This document shows, in pieces, positions 5,201-18,991 of a DNA stretch of 37,735 nucleotides (its first letter is position 1; every line of letters starts with the position of its first letter). The notes under the pieces are model-generated. The model saw only the letters and a program-made list of their open reading frames with translations. It searched no databases and was not told the DNA's origin. Both the position numbers and the translations under genes were made by a program. Source of the stretch: Lysobacterales bacterium (GTDB lineage Bacteria; Pseudomonadota; Gammaproteobacteria; Xanthomonadales; SZUA-36); assembly GCA_021648125.1 (NCBI GenBank), contig JAKITK010000029.1:1-37735 (forward strand), written 5' to 3'.

Positions 5201-6547
5201 AAACAGGCTCTTGCTGTACGCTGCCGGGGCTTGGTTAATCTTGACTACCAGCCCATTTGCAGCTGTGGTTTTGATGGAGAATCGGCACCCATTTCTGAGC
5301 AATTGCAGGCCTTTGAAGAGCTGAGCGGAGAAATCGATGAACAGATTCGATTATTTTTCCAGCAAAAGAGCGTCAAAGCTCGGCTAGGAGAGTGGCAGCA
5401 ACAAGGGCTCGAGCCAGGCAGTTCAACCAGTGCCTATTTGGAGGGTCTACAGCCAATACCGGAAATCGCTGATATCAAACTACTTGACCAACACCTGGCA
5501 GGACTGAATTTAGTCAAAGAGGTTGATGATTCCGTAGTTTTGGAGTTGTTAGGCCAACGGGCCTGGAAACCAACGGAACTGTTGCAAAAACTGGAACAAT
5601 TATTTACCGGGCTGGGGGCGCGCCGCATCCGTTTTCGGGAAACTAAGCAAAATGCTGCTATTTCAGAGACAGTTATTAGCTGGTGCGGCCAACAGGCGGC
5701 TCGCTACGGCACACCATTACCGAAAGGTCTGGGTCAAGATGCTTTGCGTATTATTACCGAGCAATTGAGAGCCGATGAAATCAGCACTGCAATGCTACAG
5801 CGACTGGATGATATTGGTCTTGATAGGGCGGGCAGGAAATGCATTTTATCCTGGCTATTGGAGGGCCAAATTTCATTGCCGAAGGAGCGACTAATGGATA
5901 GCTCGGTATTGTGCGCAATACAACTTTTGCATAACCGTAGCCACCCCACAACGCCAACCGAACTGGCAACGATAAGCGCCACTGCGTATCGCCATTCTGT
6001 CAGCTTGCGGCCACTAGCGGGTACTAACTGGGCCGATTGGCTGAATGAGTTGGCAGAGATTCAATTGGCTGAGGTCTTGCCGCTGCCTGAGGCACTAAAG
6101 CAATACACCAGCTCCCAATGGCTACTGATTGACTGCTTGGGCCTACCTTTGCTGGAGCCGTTACAGCAGGTTATAGAAAAAGTTTTCTCTGCCTGGAAAC
6201 AACCCGTCATTTCTTTCGCCGAGGTCTCTTCTGATACCAGTACTGACGGCTGTTATCGGCTGTTACTGGATGCGGGAATTAACCACCCGTTGGAGAAAAT
6301 TGATGTTGTCGATGAGCAGGTTCACGCAGCCACCGCGGATTTTGATGAACTAGTAGCCAGAGTTACCGCCGAGCTAATCATCGCCGCTAAACAATTGTTA
6401 CCGCGCCTAGACCCTGGTAAACCTTTGCTTATTTTTGCAGATCATGGTTTCCGTATGAACACTGACGGCAAGGGTTACAGTCATGGCGGTGACTCCACGC
6501 TGGAGCGACTGGTTCCATTGTGGTACTGCAGCCCTCACGGAAGTTAG
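2249..6547 (+). CDS. BrxC/PglY-like P-loop ATPase fused to a PglZ-like domain
   Basis: A 1432-residue protein. The N-terminus resembles DUF6079/BrxC-type ATPases: an IGDLLEVRP start, a Walker A motif GHYGSGKS at 67-74, and a Walker B motif LLVLDE at 140-145. The middle is mostly helical with one Cys pair (CSCG) and no motif I recognise. The last ~145 residues look like the PglZ fold of the alkaline phosphatase superfamily: LLIDCLG with D1295 near the first metal site, FADHGFRM with D1398/H1399, and YSHGGDSTLE with H1412. In BREX and Pgl phage-defence systems the ATPase and PglZ are separate proteins; here they appear to be one chain. No methyltransferase of the PglX type lies beside it. The gene has a weak ribosome-binding site and is divergent from a TPR gene. 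Domain calls are from motif recognition. Confidence 0.75.
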   Translation: MSEKITNIGDLLEVRPHPTVVRLTDLEAESADWLTDSFLITAEIKAHLQALRQLLKRKQGGGAFLIGHYGSGKSHFLSYLTQQLRSGQLVSGSVQVIPISLVNFSATNRLEDIVCSALGIEVDSGDRRLAWDTLQPDATLLVLDELSEFLRSKSDAQAFNEDVRFLQFIGEWSMDRSFWILAAMQEGIEHTGELEHSLYRKIKDRYPLRLLLTPAHVQTLIADSILIKKPGYQKAVRRLGQQLRESFPSLSLDLSLLQSIYPLHPATLTLLEEIRDRFSQTRGVVDFVVTSLRGDPTRGVEPFLNQPWGALITPDMIVDHFLDLFELQPEFIGLAQQVFPWYRQHLDKLFEKSALRTLAQRVLKLLVLVHLSPARDHLSASEAASWLLFSATRVEPTRNLKIIEKILRQFADQGRFVSSHGGGYRLELNDDGSAAFETQLKREMGELRGQSTLILELLVPLLPEGGFNPFTLPREQYQHRLLRWRFHERGYAVWSGETEPQPEEAEIRLCIRLPWGEASAAVGCYTLIPLPIQVNEDLLELAALSRIQAHPLGIEHKKRLMQRIQSRVPMWQNMVRNAWLEAALVTPEGQRETPPRFNIKGPPDSWLEVLALWVLRRTWPRFERFAPAHGPLPKAAWRQLMRFTTDADLLSEHADEYVMLIREAYLVPMGLLRRKGREYIIPRNLEKHELIAMITPLLEHNPSPQTIAEHLSNPIYGLVPDQTRAILVFLLLQGELDIIKQGVSYRDSFETLPNLLQYDKVVPGNSLSSKQLQAIELLCTGLNIPIPRQWSVLAQRRIARLAQIAAAELVNRMQSLADKLQSIAQSEGLWQRLRSHLAIWKLLTEDSDVLQGLQQFLYEAGSVQAHLAETTSFTSLEERLARLLTKIEFYRYLLQHPALAESQIVSKIEALGEMPTLEQVDELDSWLQQAGVIYADYKSDYQSAHERWWQTIDQHPLWQWQASTLAHSQHIGLGQQLAVIASYRKQALAVRCRGLVNLDYQPICSCGFDGESAPISEQLQAFEELSGEIDEQIRLFFQQKSVKARLGEWQQQGLEPGSSTSAYLEGLQPIPEIADIKLLDQHLAGLNLVKEVDDSVVLELLGQRAWKPTELLQKLEQLFTGLGARRIRFRETKQNAAISETVISWCGQQAARYGTPLPKGLGQDALRIITEQLRADEISTAMLQRLDDIGLDRAGRKCILSWLLEGQISLPKERLMDSSVLCAIQLLHNRSHPTTPTELATISATAYRHSVSLRPLAGTNWADWLNELAEIQLAEVLPLPEALKQYTSSQWLLIDCLGLPLLEPLQQVIEKVFSAWKQPVISFAEVSSDTSTDGCYRLLLDAGINHPLEKIDVVDEQVHAATADFDELVARVTAELIIAAKQLLPRLDPGKPLLIFADHGFRMNTDGKGYSHGGDSTLERLVPLWYCSPHGS

Positions 6548-6600: not shown

Positions 6601-8709
6601 GTGTCGAATGTAATACCTATGCGTGAAACTAGATCAGTAAAACCCAATGACCAATCAGCCCACAACAAGCTTACGTTACCGGATTTTGAGTCTATTACGG
6701 CAACAACCATAGTAGCGGATGTTGAATGCCTGCTTGAGGCATATCAGCAATGTCTTGATTCACTGGAAAATATTGCCGCTGATGAACTGAGCTGGAAATC
6801 ACTGGTGATGCCGGAGTTGGCAATTTCACTGGAACTGGATGAATACTGGTCACCGGTTTCGCATTTGAATCATGTAGCAGATAATGAAAAATTGCGTGAC
6901 GCTTACGATAAGGCTCGGGAAAAAATTACTGCGTTTTTTGCCAGCAGAGGACAAAACCATAAGCTTTACCAACGCTGGCAACAGCTTATGGATAGTTCGG
7001 CATTTCAGCAACTGGATGCTGTGCAGCAGCGGATTATTGAGCATGAATTACGCGACTTTAAACTCTCCGGGGTGGCGCTAGAAGGTAAAACCGGTCAGCG
7101 TTTTCGTGAGTTGGTTGAAAAAAAGAGTCAGCTGTCATCTGATTTTTCCAATAATCTGCTAGATGCGACCAAACTATGGCGCAAACTTATTAGCGATAAA
7201 GATCAATTGGCGGGTTTACCGGAAAATGAACTATGCCTGCTGCAGGGTTTGGCTGAAGTTGCAGAGGAAGCGAGCGGTAGCTATTTACTCAATCTCAGTT
7301 ATCCGGCCTACATTGCGGTGATGACCTATGCCGATGATACCGGTTTGCGCGAAGAAATGTATCGTGCCTTCAGTACCCGTGCATCTGAAAATATGGAAAT
7401 TACAGGTAGCGAGAAATACGACAATAATCAAATACTACTGGATATTCTTAGCGTAAGGGAGGAAATGGCCGCACTACTGGGCTTTTCTGATTATGCAGAA
7501 TATGCCTTGGAAACCCGGATGGCTGATTCCTCAGCCGAGGTTATGGCGTTTTTACAGCAACTGGCAAAACAGGCTACCCCTGCAGCCAGGGTTCAGTTTG
7601 AAGAGTTACAGGCGTTTGTCCTAGCAGCAGGTGGCCCGCAACAATTACAAGCCTGGGATATTGGCTACTGGTCGGAAAAACTTCGCCAGCAGCGTTATTC
7701 AATATCAGAACAACAAATTAGACCTTACTTTCCCGCACCAGCGGCGGTCGAGGGCCTTTTTAGTATCGTAGAACAACTATACGGCATCAGTTTCAGGCTT
7801 GATGCTACCGTGAGCAGCTGGCATAGCGAGGTTGAATATTATCGGGTGTATTCGGCTGAGGGTAAAGAAATGGCCGGGCTTTACCTTGACCTTTATGCCC
7901 GCGATGATAAACGCAGTGGCGCGTGGATGGATGTTTGCCGTTCTCGCCATCAGCTGGAAGATGAAAAGCTCCAGTTACCGGTAGCATTCCTTACCTGTAA
8001 TTTTGCCCCGCCACAGGGCGATACCCCCTCTCTGCTGAGTCATAGCGATGTAGAAACCCTGTTTCATGAGTGTGGACATTGCCTGCATCACTTGTTGACC
8101 CGAATTGACTGGCCTCAAGTAGGTGGAATCAATGGCGTTGAGTGGGATGCAGTTGAACTACCCAGTCAGATACTGGAAAACTGGTGTTGGGAAAAATCAG
8201 CACTGGATCGCTTTGCCCGGCACTACCAGACAGGCGAGGCCCTGCCGGAAGAATTATTGGTACGGATGACTAAAGCCCGACACTTTCAAAAGGCTATGCA
8301 GTTGGTGCGTCAACTGGAATTTGCAATTACCGATATGCGCCTGCATCTGGAGTTTGATAGCCAGAGCCCGTTGGACCCCAACCAGTTGATGGCTGAAGTT
8401 CACAACCAAGTTGGCGTTACCCCGATGCCGGAATATAACCGCATGCTCTGTAGCTTCGGACATTTATTCGCCGGCGGATACGCGGCCGGTTACTATAGTT
8501 ATTTATGGGCGGAGTTGTTATCGGAAGATGCCTTTTCCCGCTTTTTGGAAGAGGGTATATTTAACCCCGAAACCGGCGCTGCCTTCCGCGATGAGGTACT
8601 TGCGGTGGGCGCTTCGCGCCCGGCGGCAGAGTCTTTCGCGGCTTTCCGCGGCCGTGCCCCGCGCATAGCGCCGCTGTTGGCTGCCTATGGAATAGGAGAA
8701 AACCAATGA
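6601..8709 (+). CDS. prlC: Oligopeptidase A, M3 family zinc metallopeptidase
   Basis: The 702-residue protein matches M3 family peptidases along its length. It carries the zinc-binding HECGH motif at 489-493, followed by the conserved NGVEWDAVELPSQ segment that supplies the third ligand. The enzyme is cytoplasmic and degrades short peptides, including cleaved signal peptides. It probably follows the GTG at 6601, but an in-frame ATG at 6619 is possible; neither has a strong ribosome-binding site, and the first ~20 residues are not family-like. Its stop overlaps the start of xthA by four bases (ATGA), so the two genes form an operon. The gene is intact and marks the resumption of ordinary chromosome after the defence genes. 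Confidence 0.93.
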   Translation: MSNVIPMRETRSVKPNDQSAHNKLTLPDFESITATTIVADVECLLEAYQQCLDSLENIAADELSWKSLVMPELAISLELDEYWSPVSHLNHVADNEKLRDAYDKAREKITAFFASRGQNHKLYQRWQQLMDSSAFQQLDAVQQRIIEHELRDFKLSGVALEGKTGQRFRELVEKKSQLSSDFSNNLLDATKLWRKLISDKDQLAGLPENELCLLQGLAEVAEEASGSYLLNLSYPAYIAVMTYADDTGLREEMYRAFSTRASENMEITGSEKYDNNQILLDILSVREEMAALLGFSDYAEYALETRMADSSAEVMAFLQQLAKQATPAARVQFEELQAFVLAAGGPQQLQAWDIGYWSEKLRQQRYSISEQQIRPYFPAPAAVEGLFSIVEQLYGISFRLDATVSSWHSEVEYYRVYSAEGKEMAGLYLDLYARDDKRSGAWMDVCRSRHQLEDEKLQLPVAFLTCNFAPPQGDTPSLLSHSDVETLFHECGHCLHHLLTRIDWPQVGGINGVEWDAVELPSQILENWCWEKSALDRFARHYQTGEALPEELLVRMTKARHFQKAMQLVRQLEFAITDMRLHLEFDSQSPLDPNQLMAEVHNQVGVTPMPEYNRMLCSFGHLFAGGYAAGYYSYLWAELLSEDAFSRFLEEGIFNPETGAAFRDEVLAVGASRPAAESFAAFRGRAPRIAPLLAAYGIGENQ

Positions 8710-9473
8710 AAATAGCCAGCTGGAATGTAAACTCATTAAATGTGCGCCTGCCGCATGTGCAAGCCTGGCTCGAAGTTGCTCAACCGGATGTACTTGCCTT
8801 GCAAGAAACCAAAATGACGGATGATAAATATCCCTTGGAGGCGATTTTAGAGGTCGGTTATCACTCAGTTTATGCCGGGCAAAAAACTTACAACGGTGTA
8901 GCCGTGTTAACTAAGCAGGAAGCGTTTGATCCGATAACGGATATTCCCGGTCTGGATGATCCACAGCGACGGATACTGGCAGTTACTGTTGATGATGTGC
9001 GCATAATTGATCTGTATGTGGTTAACGGCTCAGAAGTTGGCTCAGAAAAATTTGCCTACAAAATGCACTGGCTGGAGCAGGTGACTAAATTTATCGAGGC
9101 GGAAATGCAGCGCTTTGATAAAGTGGTGGTGTTGGGTGATTTCAATATAGCCCCAGAAGATGCAGATGTGCATGATCCGGAAAGCTGGAAGGATAAAATT
9201 CTCTGCTCAGTTGCAGAGCGAGCTGCACTGGAACGGATTATGGATATTGGGCTTACTGATACTTTCCGTATGTTCGAGCAAAAAGAAAAACAATGGAGCT
9301 GGTGGGATTATCGCCAAGCCGCCTTCCGACGCAACATGGGCTTGCGCATCGACCTGGTACTGGCATCAAAGGCAATGGCAGATGTATGCACCACAGCCTA
9401 CATAGACAAAGAACCCCGCCGCCAAGAAAGACCCTCTGACCACACCCCGGTTATTGCAGAGTTCAATCTCTAA
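8706..9473 (+). CDS. xthA: Exodeoxyribonuclease III
   Basis: The 255-residue protein is a full-length member of the exonuclease III/AP endonuclease family, which cuts DNA at abasic sites and degrades 3' ends during base-excision repair. Catalytic landmarks are all present: WNVNS (N7), LQETK (E34), GDFNIAPEDADVHD, and the C-terminal SDHTPV containing the active His. Translation is coupled to prlC by a four-base overlap. The last 76 bases of this gene are repeated, with eight differences, at 10367-10442 beyond parDE. This suggests that the 3' end is a site where foreign DNA has entered. Confidence 0.95.
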   Translation: MKIASWNVNSLNVRLPHVQAWLEVAQPDVLALQETKMTDDKYPLEAILEVGYHSVYAGQKTYNGVAVLTKQEAFDPITDIPGLDDPQRRILAVTVDDVRIIDLYVVNGSEVGSEKFAYKMHWLEQVTKFIEAEMQRFDKVVVLGDFNIAPEDADVHDPESWKDKILCSVAERAALERIMDIGLTDTFRMFEQKEKQWSWWDYRQAAFRRNMGLRIDLVLASKAMADVCTTAYIDKEPRRQERPSDHTPVIAEFNL

Positions 9474-9644
9474 GAAGAGGGGTCTGCTTGAACTCAACTT
9501 TCAAGTGCAACAGGGTATTACCTAAGTGGCCAAAACAAATTGAAAGTACCTAGGTATGGTAAGCCTGATTGTAGTTAATCCACCTATTTGATAGCACAGT
9601 ATTGGGGGGCAAGCAGGTTCAAAAAATCGATAGAGGCAATTGAA

Positions 9645-9675
9645 AGTGTTGAAATGTGTTAGTATGTGTTGAACA
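9645..9675. repeat. Tandem GTGTT repeats before the parDE cassette
   Basis: Three close variants of a TGTGTTGAA unit follow one another (GTGTTGAA, GTGTTAG, GTGTTGAA) at roughly 10-11 base spacing, about one helical turn. They could be binding sites for the RHH antitoxin encoded downstream, but a REP-like pair separates them from the gene, so the role is uncertain. Confidence 0.35.
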
Positions 9676-9679
9676 GTGC

Positions 9680-9779
9680 GTAGGGTGGGCATTTATGCCC
9701 ACGCGCAAAAGCCAACCAAGCCGAATTGTTTTCTTAAACATTTAAAATGTCGTTGCGTGGGCATAAATGCCCACCCTAC
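9680..9779. repeat. REP-like inverted pair (BIME-type element)
   Basis: Bases 9680-9704 and 9755-9779 are exact 25-base reverse complements. Each arm is itself a hairpin (GTGGGCAT...ATGCCCAC) flanked by the asymmetric tail GTAGG. Two REP units facing each other across ~50 bases is the layout of a bacterial interspersed mosaic element. Such units are moved by RAYT (Y1-type) transposases, none of which is in the window. The remainder of 9474-9828 holds no gene; an upstream in-frame extension of parD running through this repeat is spurious. Confidence 0.78.
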
Positions 9780-9828
9780 AAAAGAACGAGACATTGGTTT
9801 GGTTCACTTAGTTATGGGAGCATATCAC

Positions 9829-10080
9829 ATGCAACGCACAACCAGTATTACGCTTGGCTCACACCAACAGCAATTTATTAAATCCTTGGTTGAAAGTGGC
9901 CGTTATACTTCAACCAGCGAGATAGTAAGAGATGCTTTACGCAAGCTGGAAGAATCTCAAGGCCCTGAATGGTTGCTCAGTCAGTTAATTGAAGGCGAAA
10001 AAGGTGTAGCTGAGGCCTGGGGTAATGATGATCTTCTTGGTCACATTAAACGAGAAGCAACAAAGCGTGGCAATTTATAA
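9829..10080 (+). CDS. parD: ParD-type ribbon-helix-helix antitoxin
   Basis: The 83-residue protein begins MQRTTSITLGSHQQQFI and continues with SGRYTSTSEIVRDALRKLEE, the standard ParD/CopG ribbon-helix-helix domain. The tail (residues 50-83) would bind the toxin. The start at 9829 has GGGAG eight bases upstream. A longer reading frame exists but crosses a REP-like repeat. The gene overlaps parE by 14 bases. The product represses its own promoter and blocks ParE. The cassette is bracketed by xthA and a duplicated xthA 3' end, so it was acquired as a unit. Confidence 0.88.
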   Translation: MQRTTSITLGSHQQQFIKSLVESGRYTSTSEIVRDALRKLEESQGPEWLLSQLIEGEKGVAEAWGNDDLLGHIKREATKRGNL

Positions 10081-10354
10081 AATATCACCCACTGCAGAGC
10101 AGGATCTTATCGGTATTTATATCCGGGGTTTTCGTGAATGGGGTGACAAAAAAGCTGACGATTTCCAGATCCAACTGATTTCAAGTTTCCAAATGCTGGC
10201 TGATAACCCAGATATGGGGCGCGCAGTTGCTGTTCGACCACAATTACAACGCCATGAATTAAACCCCTATGTAATTTTTTATCGAAAGTTTAGCTACGGT
10301 GTGAGGGTTGCTAGGGTCTTATATAAAAATCGTGCAATGGAGAAATATCTTTAG
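10067..10354 (+). CDS. parE: ParE-type toxin (RelE/ParE superfamily)
   Basis: Starting from GTG at 10067, the 95-residue protein reads MAIYKISPTAEQDLIGIYIRG and ends with VRVARVLYKNRAMEKYL, the classic ParE fold boundaries. ParE toxins of this type poison DNA gyrase. The frame opens earlier (ATG at 10025), but those codons lie inside parD and do not look like ParE; GAGAAG precedes the GTG by about nine bases. Overlap with parD indicates coupled expression. It appears complete. Confidence 0.87.
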   Translation: MAIYKISPTAEQDLIGIYIRGFREWGDKKADDFQIQLISSFQMLADNPDMGRAVAVRPQLQRHELNPYVIFYRKFSYGVRVARVLYKNRAMEKYL

Positions 10355-10366
10355 TTATTTGATAGT

Positions 10367-10442
10367 CTATATAGACAAAGAACCCCGCCGCTAGGAAAGA
10401 CCCTCAGACCACACCCCGGTGATCGCAGAGTTTGATCTCTAA
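10367..10442 (+). pseudogene. Duplicated, diverged 3' end of xthA
   Basis: These 76 bases match 9398-9473, the end of xthA, at 68 positions. Read in the xthA frame they encode the same C-terminus (RPSDHTPVIAEF), ending at the same stop. Most differences are silent third-position changes (TCT/TCA, GTT/GTG, ATT/ATC, TTC/TTT); one is N to D, and one codon is TAG where xthA has CAA. The silent pattern shows it descends from a once-functional xthA of a related strain rather than from decay of the local copy. It marks the right boundary of the parDE cassette. Confidence 0.85.
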
Positions 10443-10527
10443 ACTTACAGCGGAGTGTTTTTTCTGGTTATTGGTTATTTCTACTCGTAACTCATCTATG
10501 CCGAGAACACCTAATTTAACCCAATAA

Positions 10528-10559
10528 ACTTGTCTTCCTAGGCTCAGAGCCGGGATATC
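10528..10559. repeat. Dispersed 32 bp repeat, copy 1
   Basis: These 32 bases (ending CTCAGAGCCGGGATATC) match 25381-25412 at 29 positions. The flanks do not match. The copy lies just downstream of the type III restriction gene. Family unknown. Confidence 0.7.
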
Positions 10560-10573
10560 GTTTTAGATGAATA

Positions 10574-13264
10574 TTAATTTAGATGCGGTCCAATTTGGAA
10601 CCATTCTCTATTTTTGATCATTACAAACCTACAACTATTATTAGATAACTCAGCCCAGAGACCACCAATCAGGCGATCATCTTCTGCCCCTACCCAGCGG
10701 TCACCACCTTTATATTCAACCACAAGAACAACCCCATTAGGCAGTTGACAAAGAAAGTCAGGATAGAAACGCCCATTCGCTTTTTGCAAGAAAAACGAAC
10801 AACCTTCACGGCGCACCAGATTCCTCACCCAGAAGTTAATCTTGCCTTTTTGTGCTTGAGTATCTAGCCAGCAGGCGCATTCAAATTCCTCCTTGCTATC
10901 AAAATCTCCAATACGACCATAAAAGTGTTTGCGGAAAGTGAATTGCCCGTAGCGGTCATCATAATCATTCGCTGGGGCATAAGCCTGCGGATGGTATTCA
11001 AACACATGTGTCGCAGAAACTGCCACATTTTCAGCAACAGAACCAGTAAATAGCGTCTGCTGGTACGCGTTTGTAATGGTATCCTGCCGCAGCTTGTGAA
11101 TGCGTCTCTCAATAAGATTGCGAATTTGAAACTTCAACAGATTAACCTGACTCAAGTTGATCTGAGGATTAGCCAACAGTGTGCCAATCCAGGCTGCCAC
11201 AAAAGCACTTTTCTGTGAATGTGTAGATTCCGGTTGCGGCAGGTTGCGGCAAATCCAGGCTACTAATTTAATTTTATCCCAGTTTTCTGGGGTATAAACC
11301 AGCCCTAAATCACGCTGCAAGTCAGGAAGAAAGCGGGTAACAACACGGCCTGAATCAGCATCCACATCAATCTCTCCAGCCTCGGAAATCTTCATGCTTT
11401 CGCCTAACCGACTGATATCATCAATTGATGGGGTTGCTGCATAGGTTGAAAGGTCCCAGGGGTAGTCCAACAGTTCAGGGTCGTCGAATAGTTGTAGCTG
11501 ACCGTTGACGCGTAACTCCATTTGTGGAACCTGAAAAGTCTCACCCAGCTCCGCGGGTGTTTGGAAAAACTCAAGTGCAGTAGTCCTACTAACTTCTGCC
11601 GCTTGGTTAATAGCTGCTACTGCAGCAGCGGTTGTAACTGTATTGCTTAGCGTTTCAGTTTCGTCGTCTGCCAGTGGCTTATTGATAATTAATGTTTGAT
11701 TTTTGTTATCCCACTTTATTTTAGCCCGCAGGGATTTAGGCAGGCCCTTAAAGTTAGGTTTTTCCGGTAGAGGGACTTCGACAGGGGTAATGATAATGCG
11801 ACCCTGATATGGATCAACATCCAGGCGCCCCTGTTCAGCTATTGCGGCCTTAACAAACTCTACCACCTCACGGCGTTCAAAGCCGGCACCGGTGACCAGG
11901 CGGTCACGTAAGGTGCTGGCGGTATCGGCAAAGTTACGCGAAACCACAAAGGCATAAGATTGATTCAACGCCCCACTGGTGCGGCGGCTAGCGCCCGGTT
12001 GACGAAGCACCCGCCCCAGAAGTTGCTCCACAGCAGTTGCAGAACGCAGAGAGGCCATACTCACTAGGATGTAGGCAAAAGGGCAATCCCATCCTTCTGC
12101 CAGTGCTTTTTGGGTAATCACATACTTAACAGGGCAGTCAGGATCGGCGATACCGAGTTTATAATCAGCATCAATTTGCTCTAGGCCTTTCACCTCACCG
12201 GTAGCAATAGTGATCTCCTCGGCGGGTATGTTCTGGTTATCGATTAGCTCTGTATAAACCTTATCAACACATAGGGTTTCGATATTTTTGCGTCGCGGCT
12301 CTGCCTGGATCAGTACCACAGGGCGCAAGTACTGTTCCCCAACGCGCTGTTCGGCCTCGGCGGCTGCCTGTAAGCTTTCACGCCGGGCAATCGCAAAGCC
12401 CAGGCATTGCTGCCAATCGGCCTCGGTCTCCAGTACCACCGGTAGCTTAATCATTTCCTCGGCTTTTAGCTCGGCGGCCGACACACTATGCAGCACATTG
12501 GAAGGTGTACGGACAAGGTCCGGGGTGGCGGTGAGTTCCATAACCCCGCTGGGGCGGAAACGCGCAAGCATTTCAAAGGCTAGTTCAGTGCGGCTGTTAT
12601 GGGCTTCATCGACAATAACAAATGGTCGGCGCATGCGTAACACATTGGCTAGGGAGAATGGTATGGCTTTATCCGCTCCTTCACCTTCGGTCAGTAATTC
12701 ATTCCGCAGTACTGGTGAAATATTATCGAAATGATGCATCAATGCGCCACTGGACTGGTAGACTTTGCGCGACTCTTCATTTTCAACCTGGAATGCTTGG
12801 CGGGTAGCAACAATGACGACAGTTGAAGTATCCAGCGTTGCCCGAGTAATGCTCTTAGCCTCATCCAAATCGAGCACTGTAACAGGACCTGCTTCACGCA
12901 GTGCTGCATGATAGGGGTGGTGGCGGTTTTTTAGAGCCCGCAGGGTTTGTTCACGGATAGGTTTGGAGGGTACCAGCCAGAGTAATACACTGTGTTCAAC
13001 CCGCAACAACTGGGTATTGATGAGGGCGGCGCTTTTAGCTGCCAACCATGTTTTACCACCACCTGTTGGTACCCGGAGGCAAAAATACGGCATATCATCG
13101 GGGAAGCCGGTCAGGGGGTTATAGCTCATGCCTTTGCCCCAAAGCTTTTCCGTGGTTGCATTAAAGGCAACGGAAGGGCTGGGCAATTGGTGACAGTATT
13201 TAAAGTACAGCTCAACCGTTTTCAGCACCTGGGTTTGGTAAATTTTTGCGGTAAAGCTACTCAT
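10574..13264 (-). CDS. res: Type III restriction enzyme, Res subunit
   Basis: An 896-residue superfamily 2 helicase/nuclease. It has Walker A PTGGGKT at 66-72, DEAH at 219-222, motif III TATPD at 245-249, the motif VI stretch QLLGRVLRQPG, and a C-terminal PD...EYK nuclease site (D836, E850, K852). Type III Res proteins translocate or diffuse along DNA in an ATP-dependent way and cut when two unmethylated sites are met. The start lies two bases beyond the stop of mod, so the pair is one operon. All motifs are intact, so the enzyme is probably active, but the recognition site cannot be predicted. Confidence 0.93.
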   Translation of the reverse strand: MSSFTAKIYQTQVLKTVELYFKYCHQLPSPSVAFNATTEKLWGKGMSYNPLTGFPDDMPYFCLRVPTGGGKTWLAAKSAALINTQLLRVEHSVLLWLVPSKPIREQTLRALKNRHHPYHAALREAGPVTVLDLDEAKSITRATLDTSTVVIVATRQAFQVENEESRKVYQSSGALMHHFDNISPVLRNELLTEGEGADKAIPFSLANVLRMRRPFVIVDEAHNSRTELAFEMLARFRPSGVMELTATPDLVRTPSNVLHSVSAAELKAEEMIKLPVVLETEADWQQCLGFAIARRESLQAAAEAEQRVGEQYLRPVVLIQAEPRRKNIETLCVDKVYTELIDNQNIPAEEITIATGEVKGLEQIDADYKLGIADPDCPVKYVITQKALAEGWDCPFAYILVSMASLRSATAVEQLLGRVLRQPGASRRTSGALNQSYAFVVSRNFADTASTLRDRLVTGAGFERREVVEFVKAAIAEQGRLDVDPYQGRIIITPVEVPLPEKPNFKGLPKSLRAKIKWDNKNQTLIINKPLADDETETLSNTVTTAAAVAAINQAAEVSRTTALEFFQTPAELGETFQVPQMELRVNGQLQLFDDPELLDYPWDLSTYAATPSIDDISRLGESMKISEAGEIDVDADSGRVVTRFLPDLQRDLGLVYTPENWDKIKLVAWICRNLPQPESTHSQKSAFVAAWIGTLLANPQINLSQVNLLKFQIRNLIERRIHKLRQDTITNAYQQTLFTGSVAENVAVSATHVFEYHPQAYAPANDYDDRYGQFTFRKHFYGRIGDFDSKEEFECACWLDTQAQKGKINFWVRNLVRREGCSFFLQKANGRFYPDFLCQLPNGVVLVVEYKGGDRWVGAEDDRLIGGLWAELSNNSCRFVMIKNREWFQIGPHLN

Positions 13265-13266
13265 GG

Positions 13267-14868
13267 TTAAACATCCAGTGCGTAAGGGGTTTGTTTAAAT
13301 ACGATGCCTTCGCGTGATAGTCGTGCGCCCATACGGCAGGCAGCGGCAAAGATCGTCTTTGGGCCGGCAAACGCGGGTAAAGTGTCAAATGTTGGGCCAG
13401 TTAGTACGTTGCCACCGGCAACGGATTTATCTTTCAGAATACCGTTGTAGAGCAGGTAAATCGCCCGGCCTTCATGTACACCTAATAAAGGAGAGTTACC
13501 GCTACCGCTATAGCCGCTGCCGGTTTCAACAAACCAGACAAATTCAGCTAACTGGGCAAAGCTGACATCGCGGCGGATTTGGCCATCGGCGGTGAACAGG
13601 GGTTTAGAAGATAGACGGCAAAATTGGAACCCGCTGCCTAAGCCGGGGATTTCCTTACCTTTAAAGTTTGTATACCCATAGGCTACTCGTTTTATTCGTT
13701 CGGCGGTAATATTCTTGGATACTACCTTGTCCATCTCAATGAGGATGAATCGACGGGCACCGCCATCTTCTGCGTTTTTCTTAAGCAATGCATGTGCGGT
13801 GGTACCAGAACCAGCGAAGGAGTCTAGAATTAAAGAGTCTTTGTCGGTCGAAATTTGTAGTATGCGTTCAATGAGTCGGCTTGGTTTGGGGGAAGTATTG
13901 AATGGTGACTCACCACCGAATATGCCCATTAATTCTTTTGTTGCTTCATCAGTATTTCCCACCTCATCATGTGGCCACCATGTCCAAGGTACAACACCTT
14001 CGACTTCCGACAAGTAACGGATTGTATTGGGTTGTGAGTTACCTGTTTTACCAAAGTAGACTTTCCCATCAGACCTTAGTTTTTCAAAAGTGGCTTTGGC
14101 AAACCCCCAGCATCGACCTTTTGGTGGCCGAAATGATTTGCCGGATGGAGCAATAATTTCATAGAATTGGTCAGGAGTCGCATGCCCTGCTTGTGCTGTC
14201 ATTGGAATTGGTCGCCAGCGCCCTTTTGGGTCATTGTTAGGGTTCCGGTATACTTTGGCTTGTTTCTCATTTATTGGGATTTTATGCCTAGATGCTTTGA
14301 AAAGAGCGGGATTCATGGCGTAAACGACAATGTATTCATGCACATCCCCGATAGCCTCACGATTCTCTCTTGAATATCGTTTTTGCCAAACATTGCATGC
14401 GATAAATTTCTCATTACCAAAAATTTCATTCATCAATATTCGCAAAAGTGTTACGGCTGCATCATCAATTGATATCCAAATTACCCCATCGTTCCGTAGA
14501 AATTGCTTCAATAGTAATAATCGTGGATACATCATGCACAACCAACGATCATGGCGGTCTAGAGTTTCACCTTCTTTACCCACTACTTCACCCAACCAGC
14601 GGCGAATTTCCGGGCTGTTAACATTGTCGTTATACACCCAGCCCTCATTGCCGGTGTTATAGGGCGGATCAATGTAAATGCATTTAACCTGTCCTGCGTA
14701 ACGCGGCAACAGGGCTTTTAGTGCATCAAGGTTATCGCCCTGTATAATCAGGTTGCCGGAGTCGGCATCGCCAGCGGAAAGTTCTTCTACCGGTTCCAGT
14801 AGACGAAAAGGTACATCTTTGTGGTGTTTAACGACGGCCTCTTTGCCGATCCAGTTCAGTGTTGGCAC
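13267..14868 (-). CDS. mod: Type III DNA-adenine methyltransferase, Mod subunit
   Basis: A 533-residue amino-methyltransferase of the beta arrangement: the catalytic DPPYNTG motif (DPPY at 67-70) precedes the SAM-binding DSFAGSGT at 349-356, with the target-recognition region between and after them. It methylates adenine in one strand of an asymmetric site and gives Res its specificity. The start is a GTG at 14868 with GGGGAG seven bases upstream. It is followed immediately by res. No simple repeat tract that would suggest phase variation was seen. hipA ends 72 bases upstream in the same direction, so read-through from hipBA is possible. Confidence 0.93.
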   Translation of the reverse strand: MPTLNWIGKEAVVKHHKDVPFRLLEPVEELSAGDADSGNLIIQGDNLDALKALLPRYAGQVKCIYIDPPYNTGNEGWVYNDNVNSPEIRRWLGEVVGKEGETLDRHDRWLCMMYPRLLLLKQFLRNDGVIWISIDDAAVTLLRILMNEIFGNEKFIACNVWQKRYSRENREAIGDVHEYIVVYAMNPALFKASRHKIPINEKQAKVYRNPNNDPKGRWRPIPMTAQAGHATPDQFYEIIAPSGKSFRPPKGRCWGFAKATFEKLRSDGKVYFGKTGNSQPNTIRYLSEVEGVVPWTWWPHDEVGNTDEATKELMGIFGGESPFNTSPKPSRLIERILQISTDKDSLILDSFAGSGTTAHALLKKNAEDGGARRFILIEMDKVVSKNITAERIKRVAYGYTNFKGKEIPGLGSGFQFCRLSSKPLFTADGQIRRDVSFAQLAEFVWFVETGSGYSGSGNSPLLGVHEGRAIYLLYNGILKDKSVAGGNVLTGPTFDTLPAFAGPKTIFAAACRMGARLSREGIVFKQTPYALDV

Positions 14869-14940
14869 TGAATGCTCCCCAATTTATTATTTTGTAATTT
14901 CAAAGAATATCCCATCCAGATAATAATAATTGTATTATTT

Positions 14941-16182
14941 TTACTCTGCCCAGTTTTCAAAGCAAAAAGGATTAAATACCGCACTTTGCCACAGGCGCTG
15001 GCGTTCAGCCTCAGGGAATTGTGCCTGATCACACACGCTGTCCCACTCGATTTTTATAGTGTTGATTAGTTGTTCGATTAGTATGCTTGCATCGGTAGGG
15101 GTGAGTTGGAAGCGTTCACAGACTGAGCGGAGATTATCAAGCGTGGATAAGTTGCCGCGCTTGCCGTCGATGCGCATGGCCTGGCTGGCTTCACCACCAG
15201 TTCTCGGTTGCGGGCATATATCATAAGCTGGGGTCAGGGTTAAATCTTTGCCATCCCAGAAGGCGGCATGGTTGCGCGCATGGTCGTCGGTATTGCCGAT
15301 CAAGATATTGAAGGCGATGCGTTGAAACAGTTCATGTAGAGTTTTTTGCGGTCGGGTAAAACGCTGGCGAATCAGGTCGGCAAGATCAATATAGCTGGCA
15401 TAACGAGCCTCCATTTCATCCAGTTGCAGCAGGCTTAATGCACTCAGCATTTGTCGTCGGCAGAGGCCGTTGCTGGTGTCGATACGGTCGAAGCGTTTAA
15501 CCAGAATAACATCCTTGTGTAGGGATCTTTTCAATGAAACACTGGCTGTATTGAGGCCGCAACGAGAAGCTAGGGTCATGGCGATAAATTCGGCTTTTAC
15601 CGCATTATAAGTATCCGCTGTTGAACTGAACTTGGCGATATAGTGATTCGGTTCTTCCTCAAGTATTGCTTTGGGCCGTGCCCCGCCTACACTGGTGCCC
15701 CGCAGCAGCGCATTTTCAAGCTCTACCGGAAGGGTTTGGTGATTTTCTAGCATTTCCGCAGCACGGATTAATTCGTGCAGTTGCGGGTGGCTCATCTCAC
15801 GCGCCACATACTGTTTACTACCGGTCTGGAAGTCGAGAGCACCAATTCTGTCACTGCCAGATAACAACAGATAGTCGAGTTCGTTAAGCCCAGTTTTAAC
15901 TAGGCTGCTTTCCAGTACTCTTCGACCCCAGGCATCCGGTCCGGCATCACGCAGGCACGAGGGCATAATACTCATGCCTAGAGTTTCCTGTATCCCGCCT
16001 TGTAGTGGTAATTCAAACGGTGATAGCGCGATAGCATTTTCCCGCGCGAGATAACTCCTGCCATAAGTGAAGCTGAATCTCTGCGGGCTGTTGCCAGTAT
16101 CAAAAAGTCTACCGGCCACCACGGGCATGTTTTCTTCCGGCAGCCATATCCAGACGAAGGCCTCAGTATTAAAAGTCATCAT
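14941..16182 (-). CDS. hipA: HipA-family serine/threonine kinase toxin
   Basis: The 413-residue protein has the HipA landmarks in order. There is an N-terminal HipA_N region (VAGRLFD, RFSFTYG), a Gly-rich GTSVGGARPKA loop at 162-172, the catalytic NTDDHARNH at 297-305, and the metal-binding YDICP at 320-324. HipA kinases phosphorylate aminoacyl-tRNA synthetases (GltX in E. coli) and induce dormancy. The gene overlaps hipB by 14 bases and starts at one of two adjacent ATGs. All catalytic positions are present, so it is probably active when not bound by HipB. Confidence 0.93.
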   Translation of the reverse strand: MMTFNTEAFVWIWLPEENMPVVAGRLFDTGNSPQRFSFTYGRSYLARENAIALSPFELPLQGGIQETLGMSIMPSCLRDAGPDAWGRRVLESSLVKTGLNELDYLLLSGSDRIGALDFQTGSKQYVAREMSHPQLHELIRAAEMLENHQTLPVELENALLRGTSVGGARPKAILEEEPNHYIAKFSSTADTYNAVKAEFIAMTLASRCGLNTASVSLKRSLHKDVILVKRFDRIDTSNGLCRRQMLSALSLLQLDEMEARYASYIDLADLIRQRFTRPQKTLHELFQRIAFNILIGNTDDHARNHAAFWDGKDLTLTPAYDICPQPRTGGEASQAMRIDGKRGNLSTLDNLRSVCERFQLTPTDASILIEQLINTIKIEWDSVCDQAQFPEAERQRLWQSAVFNPFCFENWAE

Positions 16183-16507
16183 CAGCTATCACTGTTTTTC
16201 GCCCGCTGCGTTGTGGCAAAATAGTGGTAAGTGCCGCCAGGCTTTTTGTCAATTGGTCCAGTTCACGCTGGTTTTTCGCCAGTAATGGGATGCCAACAAT
16301 TGCGGCAGCTTCAAAAACTGTGCCCACGGCAACTTTTAAATTGCCTTTTTCAATCGACCGGACAGTCAATAGGCTAACTCCGAGGCGTTCAGCCAAGGCC
16401 GCTTGGCTCATATTACGCTCTTTGCGGGCGGCTTTGATCATGGCGGCTAGAAGGGCCACCGCACGAAGGGTATGGTTTGAGCAGACAGAAAGAGACGCTG
16501 TTTTCAT
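16169..16507 (-). CDS. hipB: HipB-type Xre-family antitoxin/repressor
   Basis: A 112-residue protein with a helix-turn-helix of the Xre/Cro type around residues 32-60 (MSQAALAERLGVSLLTVRS). HipB proteins bind operators in their own promoter and hold HipA inactive. The tail after residue 85 is polar and overlaps the hipA start. The N-terminal ~20 residues are not typical, and an internal ATG (residue 23) is a possible alternative start. The upstream DNA is an extreme AT-rich set of imperfect palindromes, fitting an autoregulated promoter. Confidence 0.88.
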   Translation of the reverse strand: MKTASLSVCSNHTLRAVALLAAMIKAARKERNMSQAALAERLGVSLLTVRSIEKGNLKVAVGTVFEAAAIVGIPLLAKNQRELDQLTKSLAALTTILPQRSGRKTVIADDDF

Positions 16508-16565
16508 ATATATAATATAACATATATTAAATGGCTTTATATACTATATAATATATATAAATTAT
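16508..16565. promoter_or_regulatory. AT-palindromic promoter/operator region of hipBA
   Basis: This stretch is almost pure A/T, with overlapping imperfect palindromes of the ATATATAA...TTATATAT kind directly before the hipB start. It probably contains both the -10 region and HipB-binding sites, which I cannot resolve individually. Confidence 0.45.
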
Positions 16566-16594
16566 ATACATCTATGGGTTTGGTTATTTAGTTA

Positions 16595-16621
16595 TTTTGT
16601 GAGAATAAAGTCGTACATTTT
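16595..16621. repeat. Left terminal inverted repeat
   Basis: Twenty-seven bases, exact reverse complement of 17891-17917. It reads TTTTGTGAGAATAAAGTC, then GTACATTTT, inward from the edge. Confidence 0.85.
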
Positions 16622-16720
16622 TCAGCTATTTCATGATCATGCCTTTACTGTAGGGAACAGGTAAGTTGTGTGTAGAATATTAGATTAATACTCTGAAAAC
16701 TAATTTTTATCGCTTAAATT

Positions 16721-17695
16721 CTATAACTGGACAATGCCGCGTTTTGTGTTGTTTTTGATAAGATTCCGTAATTTTTTTTGAGATGCCTCGGTGACATCGG
16801 CATTTTTGTAGTCCCATTCCAACAAGTTGATTTCTTGCTTGGCTTGCTCACTGATGTCAAGTTTGATGAGTAGTATGAGGTTATCGTGCTGAAAAAATTT
16901 TCTATTGGCTTTTATCAGTTGTTCTGCTTCATTGAAAAGCAGCTCGATGTCACCGGCCCAGCGTGCGAACTTATTGAGTTTGGCTGTGGAAAGGTTGGTT
17001 TTGTCTGTCTGGGTAAGTTCGTTCAGGGGGTTTGTTAGTTTTTCGATCAGTATTGACCTGATGGATTGTTGGAATATATCCAAGCCAGCGAGGACGCCTA
17101 CCGGTATATCCTCATAAAGCCACTCTTCTCGTTTACTCCCAGGGTTGCTTGCGAGCATGTCACTAACCTCGGTTTCGGTGCGTTTTCTGGAATATGAAAT
17201 GGTCGCGTCATTACGTATTGCTCGTTGTTTCAGGTCGTCTATAGCTTGATTGGGATAGTGCTTGGAGAAGTTTTTATAGGCTTTTTGACACCAGCTTCCG
17301 CCATATTCCTGATGGATCAAGTCGTTTATACGAGAATAAATTTCGCACTTCTGCTCGATGATGCCATTAAGTTGTTCTTGTTTAGAGCGAATACGATGTT
17401 TTTTAGTGGCTTTATTGAAATGTACTACGAAATCGGGAAAATGTTTTTTACCACAATCCTTACCAATATTGGTTTCCGTATTGTCGGATGTTTTTATTAG
17501 GTAACCCTTGTAGTGTGGTGTATGGCAGGATTTGATACTGCAGCTGATTTTACCGCCTTTTTCCGGCAGGTTATAAGGCTCGATAACTTCGATTAAACGA
17601 GCGTTTTGTGTATCGACACTAGGTTTATACTGGAATCGATTTTTGATGTCTTCTATACAGGTAATCTTTACATAATTTTCAATCTGGAACTTCAT
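16721..17695 (-). CDS. Unknown protein with a putative zinc-binding site, in the inverted-repeat element
   Basis: I do not recognise this 324-residue protein. Residues ~50-87 contain C-x4-C-x-T-P-H, then a charged loop, then NIGKDCGKKHF. This resembles small zinc-ribbon-like domains found in uncharacterised phage and plasmid proteins. The rest is helical and Lys/Asn rich, with a basic stretch near residues 95-106 (KATKKHRIRSKQEQ) and no membrane segment. The start has AGGGG just upstream. The gene is alone between perfect 27 bp inverted repeats and is read away from a cluster of partial repeat copies at 17771-17840, which sit in its promoter region. A DNA-binding role is plausible but unproven. 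Confidence 0.65.
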   Translation of the reverse strand: MKFQIENYVKITCIEDIKNRFQYKPSVDTQNARLIEVIEPYNLPEKGGKISCSIKSCHTPHYKGYLIKTSDNTETNIGKDCGKKHFPDFVVHFNKATKKHRIRSKQEQLNGIIEQKCEIYSRINDLIHQEYGGSWCQKAYKNFSKHYPNQAIDDLKQRAIRNDATISYSRKRTETEVSDMLASNPGSKREEWLYEDIPVGVLAGLDIFQQSIRSILIEKLTNPLNELTQTDKTNLSTAKLNKFARWAGDIELLFNEAEQLIKANRKFFQHDNLILLIKLDISEQAKQEINLLEWDYKNADVTEASQKKLRNLIKNNTKRGIVQL

Positions 17696-17770
17696 AATAC
17701 CCCTTTAACTTTTGCCTTTTTAAATGCTGAAGCAGGCCATTTTACAAAAAATGTCAGTTAGTTAACCAAT

Positions 17771-17840
17771 AAACATTCGACTTTATTAATAAAATTGAGT
17801 AAGGCTTTCTAGTTTTCAGTGAGAATTGTACGACTTTTAC
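17771..17840. repeat. Subterminal partial copies of the terminal repeat
   Basis: Two partial copies of the terminal motif lie inside the right end. ATTCGACTTTATTAAT is at about 17774-17789, and GTGAGAATTGTACGACTTTT is at 17819-17838. The second combines both halves of the motif in opposed orientation. They lie upstream of the unknown gene and could be protein-binding sites for transposition or autoregulation. Confidence 0.6.
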
Positions 17841-17890
17841 TAAATATATCCACCAAAATCGTGCTGCAAACATCTTGTTTTATTTAGAGC

Positions 17891-17917
17891 AAAATGTACG
17901 ACTTTATTCTCACAAAA
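17891..17917. repeat. Right terminal inverted repeat
   Basis: Twenty-seven bases, exact reverse complement of 16595-16621, ending two bases before the stop codon of the neighbouring Grx fusion gene. Confidence 0.85.
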
Positions 17918-17919
17918 CA

Positions 17920-18843
17920 TTAGTACTGGGCCACCGAATCATCCACTTCCAGCGACCAGGCATTGATACCGCCGGTCACATTATGGATATTGGTAAAGCC
18001 CTTGCGGCGGAAGTGTTCAGCAGCTCCTTGTGAACTGTTGCCATGCTGGCAAATAAATGCCATGGCGGTGTCTTTGGGCATGTTTTCCAGTTTTTCCAAC
18101 ATGGCTTTGTCTAACGGTTCCGAACCGGAGATGCTTGCCAGTGCGCGTTCCTGTGGGTTACGGATATCCAGCAGCAGGATTTCATGGTTATCCAAACGCT
18201 GTTTAAGTTCACTAACCGACAACTGGTTGACCGGTTTGGGTGCGCCGGGCAAATCAATTTTCAGACCTTCGCCATCGAGAGTGTCTACCCAGTCGATAAC
18301 CGCGCCTTTGGCTTTTTGTGCGGTAGGCAGATCCATCAGGATTTTCATGCCGTTGGATTCAACTTCAATTTCGTGACCTTCGACCGCAGCTAACTGGAAG
18401 CGCGCCTGCCAGCTGTTATCGATACTAAAATGCAGTGCCAGGTCATCATGTCCGCTCATAGCTTCAGAAATATTTTTTACCGCCTGATCAGTAATGCTGA
18501 TTTCCGGCGGGCTGCGGTCAGGTTTAGGCTGGCCCAGCATTTCGTGTAATTCTCCGGAATTGAACATGCCGGTAATAATGTCGCAACCGCCAATTAGTTC
18601 ACCATCAATATACAACTGTGGAATAGTCGGCCAATCGCCATAGACTTTAATGCCTTCACGAATGGCTTCATCGGCGAGCACATTAATGCTGTGAAATTGC
18701 GGTAGCAATTGATTGAGCATGCCGATAGTCGTCGCAGAAAACCCGCACATGGGTTGTTCAGGTGTACCTTTCATAAATAGTACAACTTTGTTTTGTTGCA
18801 GATGGGTTTCGATAACTTCGCGAGTGGCGGTATCCAGGCTCAT
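17920..18843 (-). CDS. Monothiol glutaredoxin / A-type carrier-like / rhodanese fusion
   Basis: A 307-residue three-domain protein. Residues 1-105 are a monothiol glutaredoxin with the active site CGFS at 33-36 and the WPTIPQLY glutathione-binding segment at 71-78; such proteins bind [2Fe-2S] clusters. Residues ~114-200 resemble the IscA/HesB fold, but the three conserved cysteines of that family are absent. Residues ~208-300 are a rhodanese domain with catalytic C265 in CQHGNSS. The combination suggests Fe-S or sulfur transfer. The start at 18843 is chosen because GGAG lies six bases upstream; a further ATG at 18861 is less likely. The gene is intact and ends beside the inverted-repeat element. 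Confidence 0.87.
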   Translation of the reverse strand: MSLDTATREVIETHLQQNKVVLFMKGTPEQPMCGFSATTIGMLNQLLPQFHSINVLADEAIREGIKVYGDWPTIPQLYIDGELIGGCDIITGMFNSGELHEMLGQPKPDRSPPEISITDQAVKNISEAMSGHDDLALHFSIDNSWQARFQLAAVEGHEIEVESNGMKILMDLPTAQKAKGAVIDWVDTLDGEGLKIDLPGAPKPVNQLSVSELKQRLDNHEILLLDIRNPQERALASISGSEPLDKAMLEKLENMPKDTAMAFICQHGNSSQGAAEHFRRKGFTNIHNVTGGINAWSLEVDDSVAQY

Positions 18844-18991
18844 AAGTTTCTCCGGGTGCAAATTATTGTCTGTAGGAATGATTTGATTGTTTAAGCTCTA
18901 TGCAAATAAAGTGGGGTTGAATTAAAACTATTCAAGTGGGGGCGCTATCTCAAGGTACTGTTCCCCAGGTTTTTCCCGTGTTTTTCATAGC

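Follow-up and report, generated by a model that had tools for sequence, protein, structure and literature searches.

A 1,327-bp one-gene unit behind a glutaredoxin-fusion gene, very probably a non-autonomous derivative of a Tn7-like transposon

In the window, i.e. the whole analyzed stretch of 37,735 nucleotides from a Lysobacterales bacterium (contig JAKITK010000029.1), a unit of 1,327 bp was delimited at positions 16593-17919, which is very probably a non-autonomous derivative of a Tn7-like (TnsA/TnsB-type) transposon. The assignment is based on the Tn7 layout of the ends, the spaced site copies at the right end, the flanking 5-bp repeat and the occurrence of the same end behind glmS in another genome. 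Neither tnsB nor tnsC was found between the ends, where the one long open reading frame has no match in Pfam, and the unit was therefore classed as a non-autonomous derivative and not as a full Tn7-like transposon. An earlier description of this DNA, made from its letters alone (the sequence-only reading), had proposed a transposable and non-autonomous unit, which is supported here. It had also considered a new class of element, which does not agree with ends of Tn7 type and with the same end at the glmS attachment site elsewhere.

Boundaries and insertion site of the element

The element is bounded by terminal inverted repeats of 29 bp with one mismatch (left, 16593-16621, plus strand; right, 17891-17919, minus strand) and is flanked by an exact 5-bp repeat, TTAGT, which represents the target-site duplication (16588-16592 and 17920-17924, both given on the plus strand). 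Within these repeats, the 27-nt arm 16595-16621 is, as had been noticed before, the exact reverse complement of 17891-17917. With a distance of up to 3 kb allowed, the longest perfect inverted repeat of the window measures 27 bp, compared to 12-15 bp in 30 simulated first-order Markov sequences.

The sequence-only reading placed the element at 16595-17917. Its arms are exact, and the element was found to be 2 bp longer on each side. Eight boundary placements were tried, and the 5-bp match TTAGT was obtained for one of them only, 2 bp outside each arm; the same placement also yields TGT at the right end. The single difference between the 29-bp ends is located in the second position (TG on the right, TA on the left), and the right terminus reads TGT and the left one TAT. 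The suggestion that perfect ends point to recent activity was not upheld, since the true termini differ in this position and a related Tn7-like system needed the terminal TG: in the tested CAST it was required for transposition in all cases (PMC10201428, in excerpt).

The target gene (17920-18861, minus strand) encodes a fusion of a glutaredoxin, a Fe-S_biosyn-like part just under the Pfam cut-off and a rhodanese. In minus-strand reading, its stop codon (17920-17922) consists of the first three bases of the right duplication copy. The element is therefore located directly behind the stop codon with zero gap, and the distance of two bases given earlier is corrected accordingly.

The glutaredoxin-fusion protein was matched in 37 of 39 family genomes. 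For five of 29 loci, all from other genomes (G127, G117, G082, G018 and G112), the first 250-330 bases 3' of the gene were read, and the element was absent in each of them, which provides the empty sites that had been asked for. Among the family genomes, the ends were found in the window's own genome (G000) and in G127 only, and those of G127 are located on contigs other than the glutaredoxin-fusion locus.

In G127, a convergent exonuclease III gene lies 104 bp beyond the glutaredoxin-fusion gene. The corresponding exonuclease III gene of the window was found at 8706-9473, and the stretch between the two genes (9474-17919) may be regarded as a composite island comprising a ParDE pair, a type III restriction-modification system and HipA with an HTH protein, followed by the element. 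A single transposon that spans the whole exonuclease III-to-glutaredoxin stretch and ends at 17919 was considered and rejected, since the partner of 17919 given by the duplication is 16593, and the exonuclease side showed no conspicuous end-like sequence. The 3'-terminal part of the exonuclease III-like gene (9425-9473) recurs behind the ParDE toxin-antitoxin pair (10396-10442), as if another element had integrated at the end of this gene and duplicated its attachment site. Outside this stretch, upstream of a peptidase gene, a protein of 1432 amino acids is encoded at 2249-6547, which matches DUF6079/NACHT and is weakly similar to BrxC/SspC.

Layout of the ends and their occurrence in other genomes

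Both ends consist of a 3-base terminus, 8 bases and an AATAAAG core. The terminal copies of the putative TnsB site, AATAAAGTCGTACA, begin 11 bases from the terminus at both ends (16604-16617, plus strand, on the left and 17895-17908, minus strand, on the right), and a spacing of about 8 bases between the terminus and the first site is thus common to the two ends. With a threshold of 10 out of 14 positions within 160 bp of the end, the terminal copy is the sole one at the left end. At the right end three copies were identified, spread across about 145 bp. The second (17827-17840) and the third (17774-17787), both on the minus strand, match in 11 of 14 positions and are individually weak, and shuffling gave a chance extra site at the 10/14 threshold in 1.5-15% per end. 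An array of putative transposase sites was therefore found at the right end (three sites) and not at the left end (one site).

The Tn7 end adjoining tnsA in plasmid R721 (NC_002525) has the same layout, with the terminus TGT, 8 bases and the core AATAAAGT. Tn7 is described, in the excerpts available, with four overlapping sites at its right end and with spaced sites at its left end; three spaced copies were reported for the latter, as at the right end of the element (PMC8649781 and PMC11406308, in excerpt). Arrays of site repeats are general in Tn7-like ends, where the median distance between the boundary and the outermost one is 12 bp (PMC8649781, in excerpt). Furthermore, the first site is preceded by an 8-bp end in many Tn7-like elements, and the spacing of about 8 bp is critical (PMC10201428, in excerpt). 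Tn7411 resembles the element in its 28-bp inverted repeats and its 5-bp duplication, with a size of 17.4 kb compared to 1.3 kb (PMC9603283, in excerpt). Unlike Tn7 and Tn7411, the element carries no tns genes, has the left terminus TA and one left-end site, and is not located at glmS.

For 30 TnsA-domain loci, a subset fetched from 49 TnsA_N matches, the 600 bp preceding the TnsA domain were also searched for the layout. The pattern TGT-N8-AAT[AG]AAG was identified in three of them. When the spacing was varied from 0 to 20, a spacing of 8 was found in three loci, 9 in one (among those three), 12 in one and all others in none. The core was absent from 27 of the 30 loci; many TnsA-domain proteins probably do not belong to Tn7 proper, and other Tn7-like elements probably use other sites.

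A 20-mer of the end with up to one mismatch was found in two of 398 order genomes and a 25-mer with up to three mismatches in two of 39 family genomes, in both cases G000 and G127, the latter being a metagenome-assembled genome (MAG) of the window's genus. The core search in related genomes proposed in the sequence-only reading thus led to other copies. The motif is thus rare, and no match was obtained with the backwards-sequence control. The exact 19-mer was found in three stretches of genome_contigs, two of which are contigs of G127 itself; viral_contigs gave no match to the end, and the right end was unmatched in plasmids. With a looser 14-mer (one mismatch), additional single matches were found in three genomes (G000:C1, G127:C74 and G398:C10), in numbers like those of the control, which matched in all three.

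Two further candidates were rejected as chance matches. One was found with an 18-mer (up to one mismatch) among 369 class genomes (G546) and the other with the Tn7-end pattern among the 398 order genomes (G078), G000 being the other match in both searches. Each is located inside a long open reading frame whose neighbors do not look like mobile genes.

The identical 19-base core was identified in a Comamonadaceae MAG (G398, contig CANCER010000006.1, here G398:C6) as part of the end TGTTTGGTGAGAATAAAGTCGTACA. This end begins 23 bp past the stop codon of glmS (TIGR01135, above cut-off), has the terminus TGT and is followed by a weaker second site 32 bp inward. The same ends are therefore found at the attachment site of Tn7. 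The island behind this glmS gene has a large multi-gene cargo, unlike the element. According to the open reading frames, it contains apparent defence-type genes (PP2C/kinase/vWA, helicases, SIR2-like, PLD-like and type I restriction-modification; L028 from 2063 onward, and L029).

A different Tn7-like end, TGTCGGAGAACAATGAAGTTG, was found on contig C96 of G127, 25 bp past glmS. It is followed by tnsA and then by an IS3-like transposase that is cut off by the end of the contig. This relic comes from the same genus and has the same end spacing as the element; its site sequence (ACAATAAAGTTGTTAAC) is different, and it is probably not the source of the element's ends.

Counting the Comamonadaceae copy, seven related ends are known, and five of them lack the terminal TG. 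All four ends with a TA terminus (the left end of the element and those on C52, C33 and C13 of G127) have one site each, at different places. The three ends with TG or TC termini have two or three sites (TG for the right end of the element and the Comamonadaceae end, TC for the end on G000:C8, whose second site matches in 13 of 14 positions).

With respect to neighboring genes, the right end of the element begins 0 bp after the stop codon of the glutaredoxin fusion, the C52 end 0 bp after a 131-codon open reading frame without family match, the C33 end 1 bp after a dihydrolipoyl dehydrogenase gene and the C13 end 53 bp after a PepSY-type gene. The left end of the element and the G000:C8 end are not located behind a gene. 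That ends lie close to stop codons was noticed in this small sample of seven. The solo TA-type ends of G127 are found at L016 4654, L017 6435 and L027 7668, and two of them sit 0-1 bp past stop codons.

Scans for an opposite end with a matching 5-bp duplication reached the contig end on C52 (19.2 kb), C33 (6.4 kb) and C13 (12.7 kb) of G127 and covered 47 kb of G000:C8 and 57.8 kb of G398:C6, where only chance-like candidates were found. As a control, the pair of the element was recovered from either side. The nearest candidate, G127:C52 +8300, has an exact 5-bp match and was not accepted, since its end matches in 10 of 19 positions only. G127 and G398 are MAGs, and G000 is an assembly of 111 contigs with 96% completeness and 4.2% contamination.

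Origin of the unit

In the preferred explanation, the sites would have been bound by a TnsA/TnsB/TnsC machine whose genes lay either elsewhere or, before an internal deletion, within the element. This machine would have cut at the termini and inserted the ends at the stop codon of the glutaredoxin fusion with a stagger of 5 bp. Repair would have produced the TTAGT duplication and left the stop codon intact. With TA in place of TG and a single site at its left end, the unit is probably no longer able to move. The layout of the sites, the duplication, the type of the ends and the lack of machinery in the unit are observations, and what is inferred is the transposase that acted, a movement at 1.3 kb or a shrinkage in place, and the present inactivity.

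In the collections searched (order, family and class genomes, genome_contigs, viral_contigs and plasmids), no complete element was detected that combines tnsB with exactly these ends, and a full-length relative with a recombinase, as envisaged in the earlier description, did not emerge from them. This speaks against the preferred explanation, as do the 27 TnsA-domain loci without the core, the terminus TAT and the single site of the left end, and the five of seven related ends that lack TG. The rve domain (PF00665) was matched in all five genomes tried, three times in G000, and had no match on G398:C6. Mu-transpos_C was not detected in five genomes including G398, where the controls were also silent, nor in G000 in another search, where the controls matched in 3 of 14 genomes, all below cut-off; both are weak absences. 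TnsA_N was found in 44 of the 398 order genomes, among them G127 and not G000.

The shrinkage in place can be put as follows. A complete Tn7-like transposon would have inserted behind the glutaredoxin gene and would later have lost the tns genes, most of its cargo and all but one of the left-end sites by internal deletion, never moving as a 1.3-kb unit. This variant is compatible with the preferred explanation, and its chances are judged to be a little below even. It is consistent with the single site and the TA terminus of the left end, with the other single ends in G000 and G127 and with the decayed tnsA element in G127. However, the four TA-type ends with one site each, at different places, suggest a common type of end rather than independent deletions, and no further recognisable gene or gene remnant was found between the ends.

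A derivation from a Tn7-like transposon could also mean a sub-lineage with asymmetric termini, i.e. a multi-site TG end and a single-site TA end, which travels as tiny one-gene units. The same reading would explain the solo ends right after stop codons by a target choice directed to the 3' ends of genes of any kind instead of a single attachment gene. We regard this as rather unlikely. If the single-site TA end is functional, this would contradict the need for the terminal TG in the related system and provide a simple test case.

An IS-like element of unknown type, with TG-type ends and a 5-bp duplication and unrelated to Tn7, is improbable. In its favor, the terminal TG is common to IS3, Mu and others (PMC10201428, in excerpt), no partner transposase was found in the collections searched, and G000 has three rve matches. 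The 19-base core at the glmS attachment site argues against it, as do the spacing and the core shared with Tn7 and TnsA-linked ends and the repeated internal sites.

In published surveys, Tn7-like elements are delimited from the transposase genes outward (PMC8649781, in excerpt). No natural miniature or non-autonomous Tn7 element was described in the titles or abstract openings among the matches listed from the open-licence literature; the MITE in PMC9603283 (in excerpt) is not a Tn7 element. Provided that the preferred Tn7-like derivation is right, the architecture of the ends alone (terminus, 8-bp gap, site core and 5-bp duplication) can reveal a cargo-only derivative, even one of no more than 1.3 kb.

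The enclosed gene

The sole long open reading frame between the ends comprises 324 codons (16721-17695, minus strand), as had been described. A plausible ribosome-binding site, AAAGGGG, is located 4 nt upstream of the ATG. A second recognisable gene or gene remnant was not found between the ends. The protein matches the profile of PHROG_7003, a family of uncharacterised function, with an E-value of 4.2e-44 over residues 9-286 of 324, which is the outcome of the homology search recommended earlier. In agreement with the absence of a known transposase signature noted there, Pfam, PADLOC and NCBIfam gave no match up to E 10, so that none of the known anti-phage defence models of PADLOC was detected at this limit. 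Weak and inconsistent matches only were obtained when six family members were scanned against profiles, and the PDB contained no sequence relative (best E 0.53).

Relatives were found in 19 plasmid records and 3 phage records, and the distant relatives that were aligned are 21-28% identical. In IMG/VR, one contig was found with the protein itself and nine more via the phage relatives. Peptide patterns of the protein were not found in genome_contigs. The residues C52, C57, H61 and C81 are invariant in the alignments of six and of eight sequences, and a zinc site at these positions is plausible. The gene thus belongs to an uncharacterised phage and plasmid family with a four-residue candidate metal site.

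In three phage loci, a repressor-type gene is located within about 3 kb of the relative. The relative adjoins an S24 peptidase with a CI-type HTH in L010, an annotated repressor is found in L106 and an S24 peptidase gene in L110. Phage repressor regions often hold accessory genes. The cargo may be a phage-exclusion or similar accessory gene, which is stated with low confidence. In L110 (4043-4843), a Pseudomonas-type prophage contig, the relative is followed by a bulb-type-lectin-like gene according to the open reading frames.

The structure model obtained from the single sequence had a pLDDT of 35.5, compared to a pLDDT of 80.0 and a pTM of 0.62 for the model from the 8-sequence alignment, which consists of a small beta part and long helices. 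For this fold, Foldseek found nothing at E <= 0.001 in PDB or BFVD. A second structural aligner gave Z values of up to 7.0 (helical proteins), with chromoshadow domains at 5.0-5.5 over residues about 25-107. Since middling Z values are common, no function was drawn from the structural matches.

After duplicate and partial loci had been left out, 13 loci with relatives were scanned for the element ends. None of them carries the ends; the best matches covered 12-13 of 19 positions, as did those of ten shuffles. Since its distant relatives are found on plasmids and phages without the element ends, the single gene is probably cargo. The occurrence of the gene elsewhere without the repeats had been named as a finding that would speak against the element. 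Such occurrences were seen for distant relatives only, and they argue for cargo and leave the interpretation as an element untouched.

The same observations bear on the proposal that the 324-residue protein mobilises the unit and thus defines a new one-gene class of elements, which is very improbable. In its favor, no other long gene lies between the ends, and four Cys/His residues of the protein are conserved. Against this stand the 13 scanned loci without ends, the location of the relatives on plasmids and phages and a model without firm structural relative, the last being a weak point as an unlisted fold is possible. That the repeats arose by chance or form a regulatory motif flanking genes can be dismissed in view of the exact 27 bp compared to a simulated maximum of 15 bp, the exact 5-bp repeat and the location at glmS, even though the motif also occurs in two solo copies 0-1 bp past stop codons.

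No Rfam match up to E 1 was found in 16300-18300. In the 3' region of the cargo gene, about 100 bp (16634-16735) are 75% identical to a second stretch of the same genome (L009 7828-7928, corresponding to G000:C62 39827-39927), without RNA structure beyond that of shuffles (z 0.24). The partner of this shared stretch on G000:C62 adjoins a lipase-like gene and what looks like a toxin-antitoxin pair.
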